A stretch of DNA of 64,000 nt from Acinetobacter sp. XS-4. GTDB lineage: Bacteria; Pseudomonadota; Gammaproteobacteria; Pseudomonadales; Moraxellaceae. Under the pieces are notes generated by a model. That model was given only the letters and a program-made list of their open reading frames with translations, did not search any database and was not told the DNA's origin. Shown here in pieces: positions 1-27,489 of the stretch. Where the stretch lies: the NCBI RefSeq assembly GCF_023920705.1, contig NZ_CP094657.1, positions 2,294,001 through 2,358,000 of the forward strand. The letters run 5' to 3'. Both the position numbers and the translations under genes were made by a program. Each line of letters starts with the position of its first letter. Positions within the stretch are counted from its first letter, which is position 1.

Positions 1-1495
1 ATGCTGAAGCCCCGAACATACCTTCACACTGTTTTTGCGCTCGAATGAGGTCTGCAAAAAGCATTGGTTTAAAGACCATGCGAATATTTAAACTATCAAA
101 GTTCTTTTTCCAAAGTTCAGCACTTTGCTGCCCGATACTGTCACTGCGCGCCATATACTCAATAACGAGAGGTTTTCCGTCTGGTTGCGTACGCCAACCT
201 GAGGCATCTTTTTTATAGTGATATCGATCTAATAGTAAATTAGCTGCTTTCACCGAATATGGAGTACTCGTTCTATACTGAGGTTCATATCCCACTACTC
301 CAGGTGGAACTGGAAAATGTAAACGCTGAGCATCATCATTTCTGACTAATTTAATTTCTTGATCTAATGAGCGAGACATTGCAATTGCACGGCGTAATGC
401 AATTTTTTCTTTACTCATTCCACCAACAACTGGGTTTTTAAGATTCCAATAAATATAGCTAATTTCAGGGTCAACAATACGTGATAGTTGCACACCTTCT
501 TTGGCAAGCTCAGGTCTTAATTTACCGTCTTTAATCGCCTTCGCAACCAATTGCCCTTCTAGCTGAAATATATCAATTTCACCTCGCTGAAATGCCAGCC
601 ATCGCGATTGGTTTTCTTCCATAACCTGAATATCAATAGTGCCTATTTGCGGCATTTTTTTACCTTTAAGGCGTTTTACGATTGCCTGATCTTCAGGGCT
701 ACTGGCAGTAAAATTCCAAGTAAAACCACGAAAATCAGGATTCGCTTTTAAAACAATGCGTGAAGCAGGTACCCACTTACTCAGTACATAAGGCCCTGTT
801 CCCACAGGATGGCCCATTACATAACCTGCTTTATCTTTATATTTTTCGATGACTTCACGCGCCACAGCTCCTGTCGGGTCATGCGCAAGTAACAAAGGAA
901 AGTTATAGTCAGGCTGAACTAAACGAATAACTAAGGTATATCTATCTGGTGTTTGTAAACCACTTACGTTTTGGTCATAGTTAAATTTTCCGGTTTTATT
1001 AGCTGCTTTTATTAATGTATCCATACCTTCAATTTTGTTCTCTAACAACCAGCTATTTGGAGAACGTAAATTCGGGTCCAATAACCGCTTAAAAGAGTAC
1101 GCATAATCGTTGGCTGTTAATTCTCTCGGCTTCCCTTTAAAGACTGGATCTGGCGTAAAGTAAATACCCTTTTTTATATGAATGGTATAAGTCAGGCCAT
1201 CCTTACTAACTTCTGGTAGGGCTGTTGCTATCTGCGGAATGAGTTTTGCAGGCCTTGCTAAATAGTCATAGGTATACAAAGTTTCAAATATCGAAGTGGT
1301 TACATGAGCCGAATATAAATCATGGATATAAGCTGGGTCGAAGCCAGTTTCAGCTGTCGGGAATACATAACGTAAAACTTTATTCGGATCGGCTGGACTT
1401 TTTGCAAATATAGTCGTAGATCCAGTTAATGCCATACTGGCAAATAACAAACCGACACTACAATGCTTGAGCTGTTTTATTAAATTTTCAGTCAT
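1..1495 (-). CDS. Peptide-type ABC transporter solute-binding protein (family 5), partial
   Basis: The reading frame is open from an ATG at 1495 down to the left edge, so about 498 residues are visible and the C-terminus is missing. It begins with a Sec signal peptide (MTENLIKQLKHC, a hydrophobic stretch, then IFAKS) and continues with the family-5 binding-protein fold: LPEVSKDGLTYTIHIKKGIYF, GHPVGTGPYVLSKW and ALRRAIAMS are characteristic of DppA/OppA-like proteins. The family binds peptides or related solutes in the periplasm for an ABC importer. It lies 18 bp after the similar gene at 1514-3292, so the two are probably cotranscribed tandem paralogues. No permease or ATPase gene is visible here; they may lie beyond the edge. 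Family is certain, ligand unknown. Confidence 0.88.
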   Translation of the reverse strand, partial: MTENLIKQLKHCSVGLLFASMALTGSTTIFAKSPADPNKVLRYVFPTAETGFDPAYIHDLYSAHVTTSIFETLYTYDYLARPAKLIPQIATALPEVSKDGLTYTIHIKKGIYFTPDPVFKGKPRELTANDYAYSFKRLLDPNLRSPNSWLLENKIEGMDTLIKAANKTGKFNYDQNVSGLQTPDRYTLVIRLVQPDYNFPLLLAHDPTGAVAREVIEKYKDKAGYVMGHPVGTGPYVLSKWVPASRIVLKANPDFRGFTWNFTASSPEDQAIVKRLKGKKMPQIGTIDIQVMEENQSRWLAFQRGEIDIFQLEGQLVAKAIKDGKLRPELAKEGVQLSRIVDPEISYIYWNLKNPVVGGMSKEKIALRRAIAMSRSLDQEIKLVRNDDAQRLHFPVPPGVVGYEPQYRTSTPYSVKAANLLLDRYHYKKDASGWRTQPDGKPLVIEYMARSDSIGQQSAELWKKNFDSLNIRMVFKPMLFADLIRAQKQCEGMFGASA

Positions 1496-1513
1496 ATTTA
1501 TCTTTATCTAAAA

Positions 1514-3292
1514 TTATTTTTTAACAGGGGTAATATCAAGATATTGCCAGTTTGTATTCATCATTGGGTGGGGTTTAAAACCCTGAACTTGTGGTTGTAT
1601 CAACCAGTTACGAATTCGTGTTATATGAATAATCCATGGATTATCAGCTTCAATCTGGCGATTAAGCTTTTCATAATATGGTAAACGTTGTTCTGGTGGT
1701 AAATGAATGGCCTGACTATAAAGAGCATCATATGTTTTAGACTGATAACAAGCATGGTTCCCCTGTCCCGCATTTGGGCCATAAAGTAATTGAGCAAAAT
1801 TATCTCCTTCAGGATAATCCGCAATCCATGCGCCGCTCCAGATCATATATTTACATTGCGTTGCAGCTTTTAAGTTATCTGCAAAATTACTTACTTTAAA
1901 ATCAACACGAATACCAATTGCATCCAGATTTTTTTTCCAGAGTTCTGAATGAATAACCGAAGCTGAGCTATTTTCTGTATTAATTTTTAAAACCAAAGGG
2001 TTTCCGTTTGGCAAGTTTCTGTAGCCATCTCCCCCCTTTTTATAACCATAATAATCAAGTAGTTTATTTGCCAATAGCGGATTGTATCCTACGCTACTTC
2101 TGTACTTCGGGTTATAGCCATTTACACCTTCAGGTATAAACATTTCAGACCTAACAGCTTGACCTTTATAGGCCTGTCTTATACTTTCTTTTTGATCATA
2201 TGCCAACGTAATTGCTCTACGAAGAGCGATCTTTTCTGGACTAAAACCACCGATCACTGGATCACGCATATTCATCATCGTATAAGTAATTTCGGGATCT
2301 TTATTAGGGAAATGCTTAATTCCTCTTTTTTGAAAGGAATCCTTAAGTTGATTTCCATCTAAAGCTTGAGGAACTGCATTCGCAGTTAGTTTGTCAAAGT
2401 CCAGTTGGCCAGATTGAAAAGCTAACCATCGTGACTGATCCTCTTCAATAATGCTGACCACAACCTTGCCAATTTGTGGCATTTTCTTACCGCTCATTTC
2501 TCTAACAAGCTGGTTATCCCACGGTGTTCCTGTTGACTTAAAATTCCAGACAAAGCCTCGATAATCAGGATTGGCAACCAGTTCGACCTTACTTCGTGGT
2601 AAATATTTACTTAACATGTAAGGTCCAGTGCCGACCGGATGCATGCCAATACGGTCACCGTAATAATCAACAACCTCTTTAGCAACGCCACCAAATGTAA
2701 TATAGGCAAGAATATAAGGAAAATTAAAGTCTTGCCGAGTTAATGTGAATTGTAATGTATATCGGTCAAGTGTTTTGACTCCTGCAATAGGTGCAGCGTA
2801 ATCAAATTTTCCAGTTTTTTTTGCTTTCGCTACAACCGCATCAGCACCTAATAATTTACCATCAATAAAAGAAACAGAAGGTGCTCGGTTTTTAGGATCT
2901 AAAATCCGCTTAATTGCATAAACATAATCTTCTGCCACAAGTTCACGGCGTTTACCTTTAAAAGCAAGGTCATTAGTGAAATAAATACCAGGCTTAAGTT
3001 TAAATGTATAAACTTTACCGTCTTGTCCAACCTTAGGTAGGCTTTCAGCCGTATAAGGCACTAACTGTACGGGACGTGCCAGATAATCATATTTAAGTAA
3101 AGGTTCGAAAATAGCTTCTGCAATGCTGCCACTATAAAAATTGGTGGTTTTAACCATGTCAAAACCATCATCGGGTGCCTCATAAGCAACATGTAATATT
3201 TTGTTTGGTTGTGCAGGCGTTTGGGCGAAAGCACAAGAAACTGATGTAATAGCCAGACTTAAAATGGCGAGCTTAAAAATTTTTAATTTCAA
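1514..3292 (-). CDS. Peptide-type ABC transporter solute-binding protein (family 5)
   Basis: A complete 592-residue binding protein. An N-terminal signal peptide (MKLKIFKLAILSLA..., likely cut after CAFA) is followed by a family-5 solute-binding domain across the rest, with landmarks GKVYTFKLKPGIYFTNDL, HPVGTGPYMLSKYLP and IALRRAITLAYDQ. It should capture oligopeptides or similar solutes in the periplasm. It is clearly paralogous to the truncated gene just downstream, with the same motifs in the same order. The only start that keeps the signal peptide is a TTG at 3292; an AGGA lies only 2 bases before it, so initiation looks weak. The gene diverges from the TonB-dependent receptor at 4073, which hints at linked uptake across both membranes. 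The substrate cannot be read from the sequence. Confidence 0.88.
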   Translation of the reverse strand: MKLKIFKLAILSLAITSVSCAFAQTPAQPNKILHVAYEAPDDGFDMVKTTNFYSGSIAEAIFEPLLKYDYLARPVQLVPYTAESLPKVGQDGKVYTFKLKPGIYFTNDLAFKGKRRELVAEDYVYAIKRILDPKNRAPSVSFIDGKLLGADAVVAKAKKTGKFDYAAPIAGVKTLDRYTLQFTLTRQDFNFPYILAYITFGGVAKEVVDYYGDRIGMHPVGTGPYMLSKYLPRSKVELVANPDYRGFVWNFKSTGTPWDNQLVREMSGKKMPQIGKVVVSIIEEDQSRWLAFQSGQLDFDKLTANAVPQALDGNQLKDSFQKRGIKHFPNKDPEITYTMMNMRDPVIGGFSPEKIALRRAITLAYDQKESIRQAYKGQAVRSEMFIPEGVNGYNPKYRSSVGYNPLLANKLLDYYGYKKGGDGYRNLPNGNPLVLKINTENSSASVIHSELWKKNLDAIGIRVDFKVSNFADNLKAATQCKYMIWSGAWIADYPEGDNFAQLLYGPNAGQGNHACYQSKTYDALYSQAIHLPPEQRLPYYEKLNRQIEADNPWIIHITRIRNWLIQPQVQGFKPHPMMNTNWQYLDITPVKK

Positions 3293-3832
3293 GTTCCTAC
3301 CTACTTAATTAATATTTTAAAGATATTATCCTTTTGAGTAACATCTAAATCCGCATAAGAAAAGTTCTTTCTCAACAGACTACTTTCTTCTTTGTAAATT
3401 ATTAGCCTTTTTATTCAATCTTTTATTTGATCGAATGGAAAATATCATAATAAAATTAGAAAGCTGTAACTATCTAATATAAAGCGAATTTCATGCCATA
3501 TTTTATGATCAAGAATAATCCCTATAAAAATATTTAAAATTTACATTTTAATTAGGCACTTAAAACTTGTGGAACTATATAAATAAAAGTAAGTTTTTGC
3601 CAAATATTATATTTATATAGCTTATCCATCATCAGCTCATATTGCACAATTAAAAGTCATAAATGTTTCATTCTAGTTCAGAAAAAATTTATATCACAAA
3701 TAAAAAAACAAGAATGTAATAATTTGATTTATATTAAATATATGTGACAAAGAAGAAATGTTACATTATATAATTACATTTTAAATAGTTCTAAAAAGAT
3801 ACAAAAGTCAAATCTAAAAACATGAAAAATCC

Positions 3833-24790: not shown

Positions 24791-25750
24791 CTAGTTAAAT
24801 GGCGACATATTTCTAGAATAAACATAAACCTGCTTATCATTACGCATTAGCGCACTTGTAAATTGTCTTTTCCTATTATTTAGCACAACCTCAATTTGTG
24901 CTTGAAAAAAACTCGACTTTACATCTAACAGGCTATTCACCTCAGTTCTATTTTGAGTATCAACTGTTGAAAAAGCATTCAGTTGCCATAATTCATCAAC
25001 ATTTTGAAAGAATTTTAAATTTTGTTGGCGCATCTGAAGTTCTTTTTCTATCGCTCCTAAATCTAATTTTTGATCCATACTCGCTAAAACTAATGGAGAA
25101 GCCGTATTAATATTCACTTTTGTATTTTCGGGTAAAGCAGAAATATAGGGAGCAATTAAATCATATTTCTTCCCGTCAAAACCTCTTACTAACTTCAACT
25201 CTTCAATACTGTGAAATTTGGCATTTGAAGTTAAATAGCTAGGATCAAGCCCCTCATAATAACTACTTTCTGCACCCATAGGCCCAGATGGTTCGTCATC
25301 TGGATCTTGCCAATCGATGACTGCTTGACTTAATTCTGCTGGCAAGCCTACACGTACAAGTAATCGCTCAAACCAATTTTTAGCAGCTTCGTTTACCTTG
25401 CCTTCATTCGTCGTTAAATTGTTTAGGTTAAATTTGCCTGACTCATCTAGTAAACGCCCTGACACTGATCCATCTTCTATAGGAAAAGGTGGCATCGGCT
25501 GTGCCCACGTTTCTTTTAAATGATCAACGCCACCAGCATTGTTTGCATCTTGAATTAATAATTCAGAAAAAAAGGCCTCTGCACTTTTAGCATAAAGTAG
25601 TGACTGATTTTGACGCATCAAATAGCCAGTATTTGCCATCGTATTAGTTTGATGCTTTGCAATAGAAGCAGCTAAAATTGTAGCCAAAGCAACCATAATT
25701 AGAATGGTTAGCAAAGCTATACCTTGCTGATTTTTTTTATAGAATAACAT
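24791..25750 (-). CDS. gspK: Type II secretion minor pseudopilin GspK
   Basis: A 319-residue minor pseudopilin. A short leader ends at Gly10, and the mature N-terminus (IALLTILIMVALATILAASIA) is the hydrophobic helix; it lacks Glu at +5, as GspK proteins do. The large periplasmic domain contains the GspK landmarks LLDESGKFNLNNL, VIDWQDPDDEP and VNINTASPLVL. GspK caps the pseudopilus tip with GspI and GspJ. Its ATG overlaps the gspJ stop (TAATG). It is the last gene of gspH-I-J-K. No clear terminator follows. Confidence 0.94.
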   Translation of the reverse strand: MLFYKKNQQGIALLTILIMVALATILAASIAKHQTNTMANTGYLMRQNQSLLYAKSAEAFFSELLIQDANNAGGVDHLKETWAQPMPPFPIEDGSVSGRLLDESGKFNLNNLTTNEGKVNEAAKNWFERLLVRVGLPAELSQAVIDWQDPDDEPSGPMGAESSYYEGLDPSYLTSNAKFHSIEELKLVRGFDGKKYDLIAPYISALPENTKVNINTASPLVLASMDQKLDLGAIEKELQMRQQNLKFFQNVDELWQLNAFSTVDTQNRTEVNSLLDVKSSFFQAQIEVVLNNRKRQFTSALMRNDKQVYVYSRNMSPFN

Positions 25751-26565
25751 TATTGCACTCCTTGCTTGGAGAGCGATAAATCACCTTGATTTAAACTATA
25801 AATCCACTCATAACTTACACCGGCAACTGTGAGTTGTATTTTTATTCCTTTCGGCAGCTTTCTAAATTCTTCAGGTTTTGTGGGGTCAATATTAATTTCT
25901 GGCCACTTTGTCACTTCTTGTGGCGTGAGTACCATAATTTGAAATTGCTCAACTTGGCTCAACAGCGTACTTGATAATGGCTGCTCTCTATTTGAAGTAT
26001 TCAAATTACTATATTTAAGACGATAAAGCTTTTTTTGATCAGGATCATATCGATATTCAATACGCTCAAAAGGTGATAATCCTTGCTTTAAGGGATCCGT
26101 AACACCAGCCTTACTAAAGCGAAGAACTTGGTTATCAAGCTCTAAGGCTGGACGTAATTGCCCGCCTTGATTAGCCGATAAAGGTATAATTTGCAATGTA
26201 TCTCGCAAAACTTGTTGATAAGCATCTTGTAATTCAAATAACTGTACTTCGTGTTGTGCATTACGATCACGGACTTTTAATAAATAATCAAAAATCTTCC
26301 AACCCAACAAAGATAGAACAGCAAAAATTGCAATTGCGACTAAAAGCTCAACTAAAGTAAATCCTGAGGCAGGAGTTAATCGAGCACTGCTCGATCGTGC
26401 CGTAAGACGAGAAACTGTGTTTCGAATGTGAGAGTCATTAAAGCCACGCTTTGTCTGAGCGCAAGACGAAGAGCTTTGCTCGGAGTAACCCCTCATCATC
26501 TGCTCCGATCGTGCAGCAAGATGAGAAGCTGGACTTCTTGAACGAAGATATTTATTTTTTATCAT
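25750..26565 (-). CDS. gspJ: Type II secretion minor pseudopilin GspJ with an unusually long leader
   Basis: A 271-residue minor pseudopilin. The prepilin peptidase motif is SGFTLVELLVAIAIFAVLS with Gly68 at -1, Phe69 at +1 and Glu73 at +5; the rest is the GspJ periplasmic domain. The leader is 68 residues, whereas pseudopilin leaders are normally about 5-20. Residues 7-67 are encoded by a cluster of palindromic repeats (26354-26545) that reads through in frame. The start at 26565 overlaps the gspI stop (TAATG), so the start is well supported; the internal Met23/Met24 would still leave a leader of about 45 residues, and no start codon lies closer. The leader is Arg/Lys-rich, compatible with a cytoplasmic position. 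Without it the protein would have an ordinary GspJ length (about 205-210). Confidence 0.88.
   Translation of the reverse strand: MIKNKYLRSRSPASHLAARSEQMMRGYSEQSSSSCAQTKRGFNDSHIRNTVSRLTARSSSARLTPASGFTLVELLVAIAIFAVLSLLGWKIFDYLLKVRDRNAQHEVQLFELQDAYQQVLRDTLQIIPLSANQGGQLRPALELDNQVLRFSKAGVTDPLKQGLSPFERIEYRYDPDQKKLYRLKYSNLNTSNREQPLSSTLLSQVEQFQIMVLTPQEVTKWPEINIDPTKPEEFRKLPKGIKIQLTVAGVSYEWIYSLNQGDLSLSKQGVQ
26354..26545. repeat. REP-like palindromic repeat cluster inside gspJ
   Basis: Two related direct repeats lie 114 bp apart: 26389-26426 and 26502-26539, both with CGATCGTGC followed by (C/A)G(T/C)AAGA(C/T)GAGAA and then a small hairpin. The hairpins differ in sequence but both pair: GAAAC-TGT-GTTTC (26411-26423) and AGAAG-CTGGA-CTTCT (26524-26538). 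A third, partial unit has GCGCAAGACGAAGAGC with GAGC-TTT-GCTC (26471-26481). ATCGAGC-ACT-GCTCGAT (26379-26395) is another palindrome. The 114-bp offset is a multiple of 3 and the encoded peptides repeat accordingly (SHLAARS and SRLTARS). I noticed no other copy in this window. Confidence 0.75.
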
Positions 26566-26945
26566 TATTTTGCTTTCATTGGATAATTAAAAAATACCAA
26601 GTGGGTAATACCATTTTGAACTTTCCCTTTATCAGAATCATATAAGCTAATTTGCAAATCCACTTTCTGAACATTCGGGCTGACTGTAGATTCAGCAGAT
26701 TTATCAATCTGCCAGGTTTCACCTTGAGAAGTAACTTGCTTACTTTGAGTACCTTGAAGCCATTCTTGATTTATCTCCATTAAAGCAACTTCATTCATAG
26801 CCACAAACTGAGCTTTTGTTCTAAGAATTGCATTTGAGGTAGATTGAGTATATTGCATGGCCACTTTAGTTAACGCGACGGCAGCTACCGCAAAAATTGC
26901 TAAAGCTACCATTACTTCTAATAGAGTAAAGCCTTTAGATTTCAT
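26565..26945 (-). CDS. gspI: Type II secretion minor pseudopilin GspI
   Basis: A 126-residue minor pseudopilin. The leader is only MKSKG; the mature protein begins FTLLEVMVALAIFAVAAVALT with Glu at +5, then a small periplasmic domain. GspI nucleates the tip complex with GspJ and GspK in the type II secretion pseudopilus. The start overlaps the end of gspH by 11 bases and the stop overlaps the gspJ start, so translation of gspH-I-J-K is tightly coupled. The short normal leader here contrasts with the 68-residue leader of GspJ. Confidence 0.93.
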   Translation of the reverse strand: MKSKGFTLLEVMVALAIFAVAAVALTKVAMQYTQSTSNAILRTKAQFVAMNEVALMEINQEWLQGTQSKQVTSQGETWQIDKSAESTVSPNVQKVDLQISLYDSDKGKVQNGITHLVFFNYPMKAK

Positions 26946-27489
26946 TTATTTTACCCAAATGATCAATTTGTATTTCTGAACCAATTGGTTTTTGTTCAAA
27001 GTAAAACTGTATTTTAACTGTTTTAGCTTCACCATTTCCAAACCAGATTAACTGCGGAGCCTGCCCGCCAATTAAATCTGTATTCGTAGCTTTTGAATAA
27101 GTTTGACCATCTAGAGGTTGTACTGTAAACGATACATGTTTAGGCAATTGGCGCGTAGTAAATTCTGGGTATTTCTGCCAACGGTTTTTTAAATCTTGAA
27201 CCTGTAGTTTACTCTGATCGTGGTATTCATACAGCTCATAAGAAAATGGAGAAACATCAGTTTCACTCATAGTAGATAGAGCTAAAACACGAGACTGGTC
27301 AAGTGACTCTTTACCGATTTTATGTGCATCAAGCAAAAACAACTCTCTTGCTTGCATCGCTTTCTTCTGGTCAACGCCACCTATATTGAGTACAACAAGA
27401 GAGGTCATAATCGTCATAATAACAATCACCACCATCACTTCAATGAGGGTAAAACCTTTTTGTGATTTAGGCAGTGATTGAAATTTCAT
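26935..27489 (-). CDS. gspH: Type II secretion minor pseudopilin GspH
   Basis: A 184-residue pseudopilin. The leader ends at Gly12 (SQKG), and the mature helix is FTLIEVMVVIVIMTIMTSLVV with Glu at +5. The periplasmic domain contains QLIWFGNGE-type strand segments (APQLIWFGNGEAKTVKIQF) typical of GspH. It links the pseudopilus tip to the major pseudopilin. It begins the gspHIJK block, 9 bases after the TetR gene. The remaining secretion genes are not in this window, which fits the scattered layout known in Acinetobacter. Confidence 0.92.
   Translation of the reverse strand: MKFQSLPKSQKGFTLIEVMVVIVIMTIMTSLVVLNIGGVDQKKAMQARELFLLDAHKIGKESLDQSRVLALSTMSETDVSPFSYELYEYHDQSKLQVQDLKNRWQKYPEFTTRQLPKHVSFTVQPLDGQTYSKATNTDLIGGQAPQLIWFGNGEAKTVKIQFYFEQKPIGSEIQIDHLGKINEI

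Follow-up and report, generated by a model that had tools for sequence, protein, structure and literature searches.

An array of palindromic repeats in frame within the prepilin leader of Acinetobacter GspJ

The gspJ leader and the structure of its repeat

The window, a stretch of 64,000 nucleotides of Acinetobacter sp. XS-4, carries type II secretion system genes on its reverse strand, to which all window features below belong. Among them, gspJ (25750..26565) encodes the 271-residue precursor of a minor pseudopilin, recognized as an open reading frame with a Pfam T2SSJ match (E 1.2e-17) and an N_methyl match at residues 67–87. Its ATG overlaps the stop codon of gspI (26565..26945) by one base. 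Beyond gspI lies a gspH-type pseudopilin gene (26935..27489, N_methyl match only), which we take to be gspH from gene order, and downstream of gspJ lies gspK (24791..25750, Pfam T2SSK). The cleavage motif of GspJ, Gly68-Phe69-Thr-Leu-Val-Glu73 (GFTLVE), provides Gly at -1, Phe at +1 and Glu at +5, which together with T2SSJ places the protein among the minor pseudopilins; the initial annotation had located this motif and the start correctly. The leader before the Gly is 67 codons long (26365..26565) and mostly repeat-derived, while gspI and the gspH-type gene have short, element-free leaders in the same genome. According to the sequence and the N_methyl match, the GGA codon of Gly68 (26362..26364) is position -1 of the prepilin peptidase site, and it directly follows the TCA that ends the repeat element. 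The ATG at the gspI stop had been regarded as the only supported start, but further in-frame ATGs occur at codons 23 and 24; the claim of a long leader holds from any of these starts, as more than 40 repeat-made codons would remain. Between codon 24 and Gly68 there is no ATG, GTG or TTG, and in-frame translation beginning at any of these starts must therefore cross both of the better repeat units. The peptide beside the cut site is rich in Arg and Ser.

Three units make up the array. Unit 2 (26363..26427), next to the cut site, is a complete element with hairpin 1, a TCTTACG linker, hairpin 2 with a 3' bulge and the end TCAGG, and scores 75.0 bits with the covariance model R1. Unit 1 (26428..26486) scores 44.5 bits (E 3.6e-8); both belong to the 28 units on which the model was trained. 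Unit 0 (26496..26541), with arms AGAAG/CTTCT, is degenerate or partial and not significant alone (17.3 bits, E 0.48), and forms a direct repeat with unit 2. The two 26-nt direct repeats (26392-26417 and 26506-26531) are 85% identical and spaced by 114 nt, and the linkers of the units are spaced by 55 and 59 nt. The array had been described as two such repeats and a partial third; the repeats are real, but they belong to units 0 and 2, with unit 1 lying between them.

The element is about 60 nt long and consists of a 5-bp hairpin 1, a linker close to TCTTGCG, a 13-bp hairpin 2 with a 3' bulge and the end TCAGG, as in the copy L159:1501-1565. Its structure was drawn from alignment A1 (28 units, 66 columns), the basis of R1; 26 of these units come from prepilin leaders and 2 are intergenic, so intergenic copies may be undercounted. 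In this alignment 86.5% of 502 cells pair, and 97 cells show a change in both partners, compared with 35.8 +/- 5.1 after shuffling and 4–18 with the partner slid, although the structure was derived from the same sequences and is thereby favoured over its slid versions, and the shuffles ignore relatedness. In 14 of the 18 pairs, at least one unit has both bases replaced; the stems thus vary among copies. The compensatory arms first noticed in the leader, GAAAC/GTTTC and AGAAG/CTTCT, are both present there, and the pattern is well supported across copies. With two hairpins, compensatory changes and unlinked sites, the element represents a dispersed palindromic family. A known RNA family was considered and rejected, since Rfam 15 gave no match to E 1 over 26300-26620 and none at the gathering threshold over the whole window.

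Copies in other places and in other prepilin genes

A BLAST search with the gspJ leader found a related 58-nt tandem array at 2194 kb of the same genome (E 7.9e-7), and R1 detected nine copies there at E<=1e-3, including a site near 3346 kb and the leader of gspG. Besides the gspJ leader, copies in this genome score 62.9, 57.1, 56.0 and 50.9 bits; two loci that supplied training units hold the first three, and the fourth is the gspG leader, a locus outside the training set. The model further found the element in 106 of 119 Acinetobacter genomes (E<=1e-3) and, at E<=1e-5, in 120 of 199 Moraxellaceae genomes, covering six of the 16 sampled genera including Acinetobacter. Copies with the same linker and end occupy unlinked intergenic sites, sites beside tRNA genes and sites within other genes, both in this genome and in others. 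The leader repeat is therefore dispersed, in agreement with the initial annotation. A protein search for the in-frame repeat peptide elsewhere in the genome matched gspJ alone; the gspG copy, revealed by the DNA model and the N_methyl search, was presumably missed because of divergence.

The 2194-kb array (L007:1728-1936) overlaps the end of a 551-residue open reading frame (1921-3576, reverse strand), whose stop codon lies inside the last copy. The 64-kb window contains no tRNA gene; in other sequences, the copies L191:1637-1700, L191:1832-1895 and L197:1608-1672 abut tRNA 5' ends, overlapping the first three bases by coordinates, and one in genome G207 (L231:1500-1564) adjoins a tRNA in a 16S-tRNA-tRNA-23S spacer. 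G207 has seven places of equal score, and recent transposition was rejected as their cause: the three places examined are near-identical stretches of 3 kb, one of which is an rRNA operon spacer by Rfam, and they are thus probably operon copies. An in-frame copy also occupies the C-terminal part of a ThiF-family gene, presumably TcdA-like, in genome G095 (L186:1501-1563; ORF 1389-2219, reverse strand). In another Moraxellaceae genus, a copy (L242:1598-1662) lies in frame between GDS and DNALA of an rve-type (IS3-like) transposase (ORF 899-1882); the transposase at L246 loses its frame past the element, and at L240 no long open reading frame spans it. Prepilin leaders are accordingly not the only coding sites of the element.

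A census covered five genomes (G000, G095, G078, G017 and G084). It gave 75 copies at E<=1e-3, 20 of them in prepilin leaders. This share is probably too high, since long leaders guided the choice of three of the genomes and prepilins supplied 26 of the 28 training units. All 20 are in the sense orientation and none is antisense. They fall in 12 of 71 N_methyl matches (69 above the Pfam cut-off), the other 59 having no copy at E<=1e-3; in the genome of the window, gspJ and gspG are the two carriers among 11 prepilins. In Acinetobacter, long leaders that carry the repeat in frame occur in gspG, gspH, gspI, gspJ and type IV pilus prepilin genes, the products of these last looking, by their N-terminal motifs, like PilW, FimU/FimT and PilE. 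A context survey of 71 chosen copies, of which 59 belonged to the five genomes and the rest were 12 high scorers elsewhere, placed 18 in prepilin ORFs. Among the best 120 GspJ clusters of a longer list, nine lacked the motif and were set aside; the leader up to Gly has 15 residues or fewer in 51 of the remaining 111, 16–24 in one and at least 25 in 59, ranging from 5 to 125 among the matches listed. For GspG, likewise from the best 120 of a longer list, 112 of 119 motif-bearing clusters have leaders of at least 25 residues. Recurrence of the in-frame repeat in several prepilin genes is the pattern, and gspJ is one of several.

The junction with the mature protein is nearly constant. The copy at the cut site reads TCA-GG in 11 of 12 genes and GCA-GG in the other, so that the element end supplies Ser at -2 and Gly at -1. 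Among the long leaders in the best 120 clusters listed for each protein, Ser occupies position -2 in 55 of 59 for GspJ and in 111 of 112 for GspG. TCAGG also stands near the 3' end of 36 of 47 non-prepilin copies, and in this position the element end and a target motif are not separable. These 47 remained of 53 non-prepilin copies once a near-duplicate and five copies that were short or weak had been set aside, and served for a test of reading frames. Of the 36 copies ending in TCAGG, 26 are open in the frame that reads TCA as a codon, compared with 17 and 16 in the two remaining sense frames and 43% for shuffled sequences, suggesting that the element is somewhat suited to the Ser-Gly-Phe reading frame.

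Array length and selection in the leader

In the window and at 20 further loci of the A. calcoaceticus-baumannii complex, the leader begins at the same ATG and continues into GGATTTAC or GGGTTTAC, and 29, 47, 66, 67 or 85 codons precede the Gly; some of the 20 loci are one genome under two identifiers, and the readout shows open leaders only, in which all 21 sequences appeared. An element stands between the start region and the Gly codon in every complex gspJ read. L056, a locus read in addition to these, has 28 codons and is also open from the same ATG, and GspJ of cluster P0001 has 104 codons before the Gly. L049, named A. lactucae as is L056, has 66 codons, and L052 has 29, although it matches residues 48-271 of the window's GspJ at 97% identity. 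Close relatives thus differ in unit number, indicating that array length changes fast, and leaders are short or long according to the presence and number of units, as had been expected for an inserted repeat.

Filled and empty sites could be compared in genome G253, outside Acinetobacter, where one host repeat carries the element at four loci and lacks it at 20, some of these being halves of one copy. The empty sites mostly read GTCC-TTGCAG-GCTGATG and the filled ones GTCC-element-GCTGATG. About six bases are replaced, with no evident target-site duplication, and the four filled copies may derive from one event. This larger repeat (L234-L237, L251-L280) has GGGTCTGTTGAACATT ends and 41 partial or whole matches in G253; four of the copies read carry the element.

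Rates of change were compared in eight genomes chosen for leaders of 66–67 codons. The gspJ leader has dN 0.176, dS 0.232 and dN/dS 0.757, while the mature part of the same gene has dN 0.049, dS 0.904 and dN/dS 0.055; gspH and gspI give dN/dS of 0.064 and 0.035, with dS of 0.84 and 0.70. Of the 67 leader codons, 23 vary at the first position, 31 at the second and 30 at the third, which shows no excess. The leader peptide is nearly unconstrained and the mature domain strongly constrained, which bears out the earlier suggestion that the insertion costs little at the protein level. A free leader peptide in front of a strongly selected protein also argues that the leader is translated.

Synonymous change in the leader runs at roughly one quarter of the rate in the rest of gspJ, and paired leader columns vary less than unpaired ones (18/64 versus 66/137, Fisher p 0.009), a poor fit to a purely neutral passenger. 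These observations speak for an account in which the 5' hairpins are a domesticated nucleic-acid structure, kept to tune translation, mRNA stability or subunit ratio, with the peptide incidental. The leader dS is likewise low beside that of gspH and gspI, 96.1% of cells keep their pair across the eight orthologues, with three compensated pairs, and the predicted RNA fold of the whole leader (-60.7 kcal/mol, z -2.3) is better than 194 of 200 shuffles. However, the minimum-energy fold contains none of the 32 local hairpin pairs drawn, so the fold score lends no support to these hairpins; the compensation among orthologues is modest, comprising four cells, being equalled by six of 500 shuffles and matched in its three pairs by one slid version; and unit number varies among close relatives, while most prepilin genes of the five genomes are without the element. 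Conversion between copies would lower dS too, and it and a cis role would each explain the low value, indistinguishably here. We regard such a role as possible but rather doubtful. It can coexist with our preferred reading, that of a translated repeat later cut off, and the confidence placed in the two overlaps.

That the repeat-encoded peptide is itself functional and selected as protein, for example as a basic N-region guiding targeting, is unlikely. The Arg/Ser-rich stretch next to the site and the openness of all 21 complex sequences and L056 from the same ATG would suit it, but the leader dN/dS of 0.76 without a third-position excess would not, nor would the alternation of two endings, ARLTRAS-G and LRFVNPRS-G, among the orthologues, or the fact that 51 of the 111 motif-bearing GspJ clusters from the best 120 listed have leaders no longer than 15 residues. 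Ordinary local duplication of the gspJ leader, with the intergenic likeness a coincidence of simple palindromes, would account for tandem units and changing array length, but is scarcely credible given that the same element, linker and end recur at loci unlinked to gspJ, whether intergenic, next to tRNA genes or inside other genes.

Processing, interpretation and known systems

Published work on A. nosocomialis M2 bears on the fate of such leaders. According to the parts of PMC4713064 available, processing of GspG-FLAG depends on PilD, in whose presence the protein runs faster, and the theoretical masses of full and processed GspG are 18,549 and 14,360 Da; a pilD mutant shows an extra band of intermediate mobility that the authors read as degradation. 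The difference gives an M2 leader of 4,189 Da. Mature GspG read from L137 also has a mass of 14,360 Da. From the nearest ATG, L137 has an element-free leader of 631 Da, and its long-leader starts give at least 5,162 Da; since neither matches, M2 gspG must differ from L137 in leader length. Close to the M2 value is the 4,108 Da of the 38-residue leader, with the element, in GspG cluster P0139, which one source assigns to A. nosocomialis. With P0139 standing in for the M2 sequence, these masses support the view that the published blot fits removal by PilD of a leader of about 39 residues. The text on the blot, in those same parts, makes no mention of a repeat in the GspG leader, and the available part of PMC12802150 holds nothing on the GspJ leader.

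Considering the element itself, its dispersal, its frame and orientation, the variation in length and the relaxed selection at the protein level, we think it quite probable that the gspJ leader is an in-frame, protein-coding array of palindromic repeats, harboured where prepilin peptidase removes it. This supports the original proposal that a repeat element had inserted into the part of gspJ that the peptidase removes, as dispersed copies and unit-dependent leader length are both found. The repeat is probably translated and then cut off. The simplest form would be one element giving a leader of 28–29 codons before the Gly, presumably the first to arise, from which the longer forms of 47, 66–67, 85 or 104 codons may have grown. 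On this reading the repeat persists because its TCA-GG end fixes an orientation and a frame that is more often stop-free than the others, because the element supplies Ser-Gly and a nearby Arg or Lys, and because prepilin peptidase (PilD) would remove the repeat peptide and leave the mature pseudopilin unchanged. The gspG, gspH, gspI and type IV pilus prepilin genes show the same arrangement. The filled and empty sites of another genus suggest that the element is mobile, and tolerance of the insertion is a plausible reason for its location in prepilins. More tentatively, prepilin genes may be a safe harbour to which the element has become adapted: its end, which gives Ser-Gly in the basic and most often open frame, would rebuild a working peptidase site when inserted next to the Gly-Phe codons, and PilD would erase the insertion, with repeated independent entries into pseudopilin and pilin genes across the family. 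If so, it would be a mobile repeat exploiting a host processing step much as inteins exploit splicing. That the repeat recurs in a single kind of removable peptide, and does so in a genus that is well studied, would offer a simple and testable reason for where repeats live inside genes, and strain differences in the leaders, annotated starts and masses of Acinetobacter GspG–GspJ and minor pilins would have a cause unrelated to the mature protein.

REP and BIME sequences with RAYT are short dispersed hairpins, mostly intergenic, often paired or tandem, with a conserved stem. In appearance the Moraxellaceae element is similar, and the initial annotation had called it REP-like. However, its stems vary with compensation, and the REP-type Y1 transposase (Pfam PF01797) was over the cut-off in none of 14 genomes, with two weak matches below it; identity as a REP with RAYT was rejected on both grounds, and this search found no mobilising enzyme. 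Bacterial MITEs with in-frame ORFs, such as ERIC and YPAL, are likewise small, non-autonomous and able to fuse in frame, as the accessible text of PMC2229807 describes. At the one filled and empty G253 site read, no target-site duplication was evident. MITEAba12 of Acinetobacter is described as 111–114 bp long, with 9-bp duplications and ISAba12-related ends (PMC6382973, in part). A palindromic repeat is likewise read as protein in the palindromic amphipathic repeat coding sequence known from Mollicutes and elsewhere (PMC2996958, in part).

The closest likeness in behaviour is to the Rickettsia palindromic elements (RPE), which are also small palindromic repeats found both in intergenic regions and in frame in conserved protein genes; in the single tested case the protein product tolerated the insertion (PMC2229807 and PMC10969869, both from partial text). 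Residence of this type is seen here in intergenic copies and in prepilins, the ThiF-family gene and the rve-type transposase. In-frame palindromic elements had been said to be known mainly in Rickettsia; they are indeed known there but, by the sections of PMC2229807 available, are not confined to it, and RPE-similar elements are cited for Wolbachia. As far as the available text goes, reviews place in-frame palindromic repeats chiefly in Rickettsia, adding Wolbachia and a small number of enterobacterial examples. In titles and the beginnings of abstracts, mostly from the open literature and among the matches listed, no description of this element or of repeat-extended prepilin leaders was found. 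The element would best be read as working like an RPE, a likeness of behaviour, and we do not file it as RPE, REP or MITE. RPE, as described in those sources, measure 105–146 bp and occupy many unrelated genes, whereas the Moraxellaceae element is about 60 nt long and appears repeatedly in a single removable segment of a single class of proteins; this recurrence in the segment removed by prepilin peptidase is the new part.
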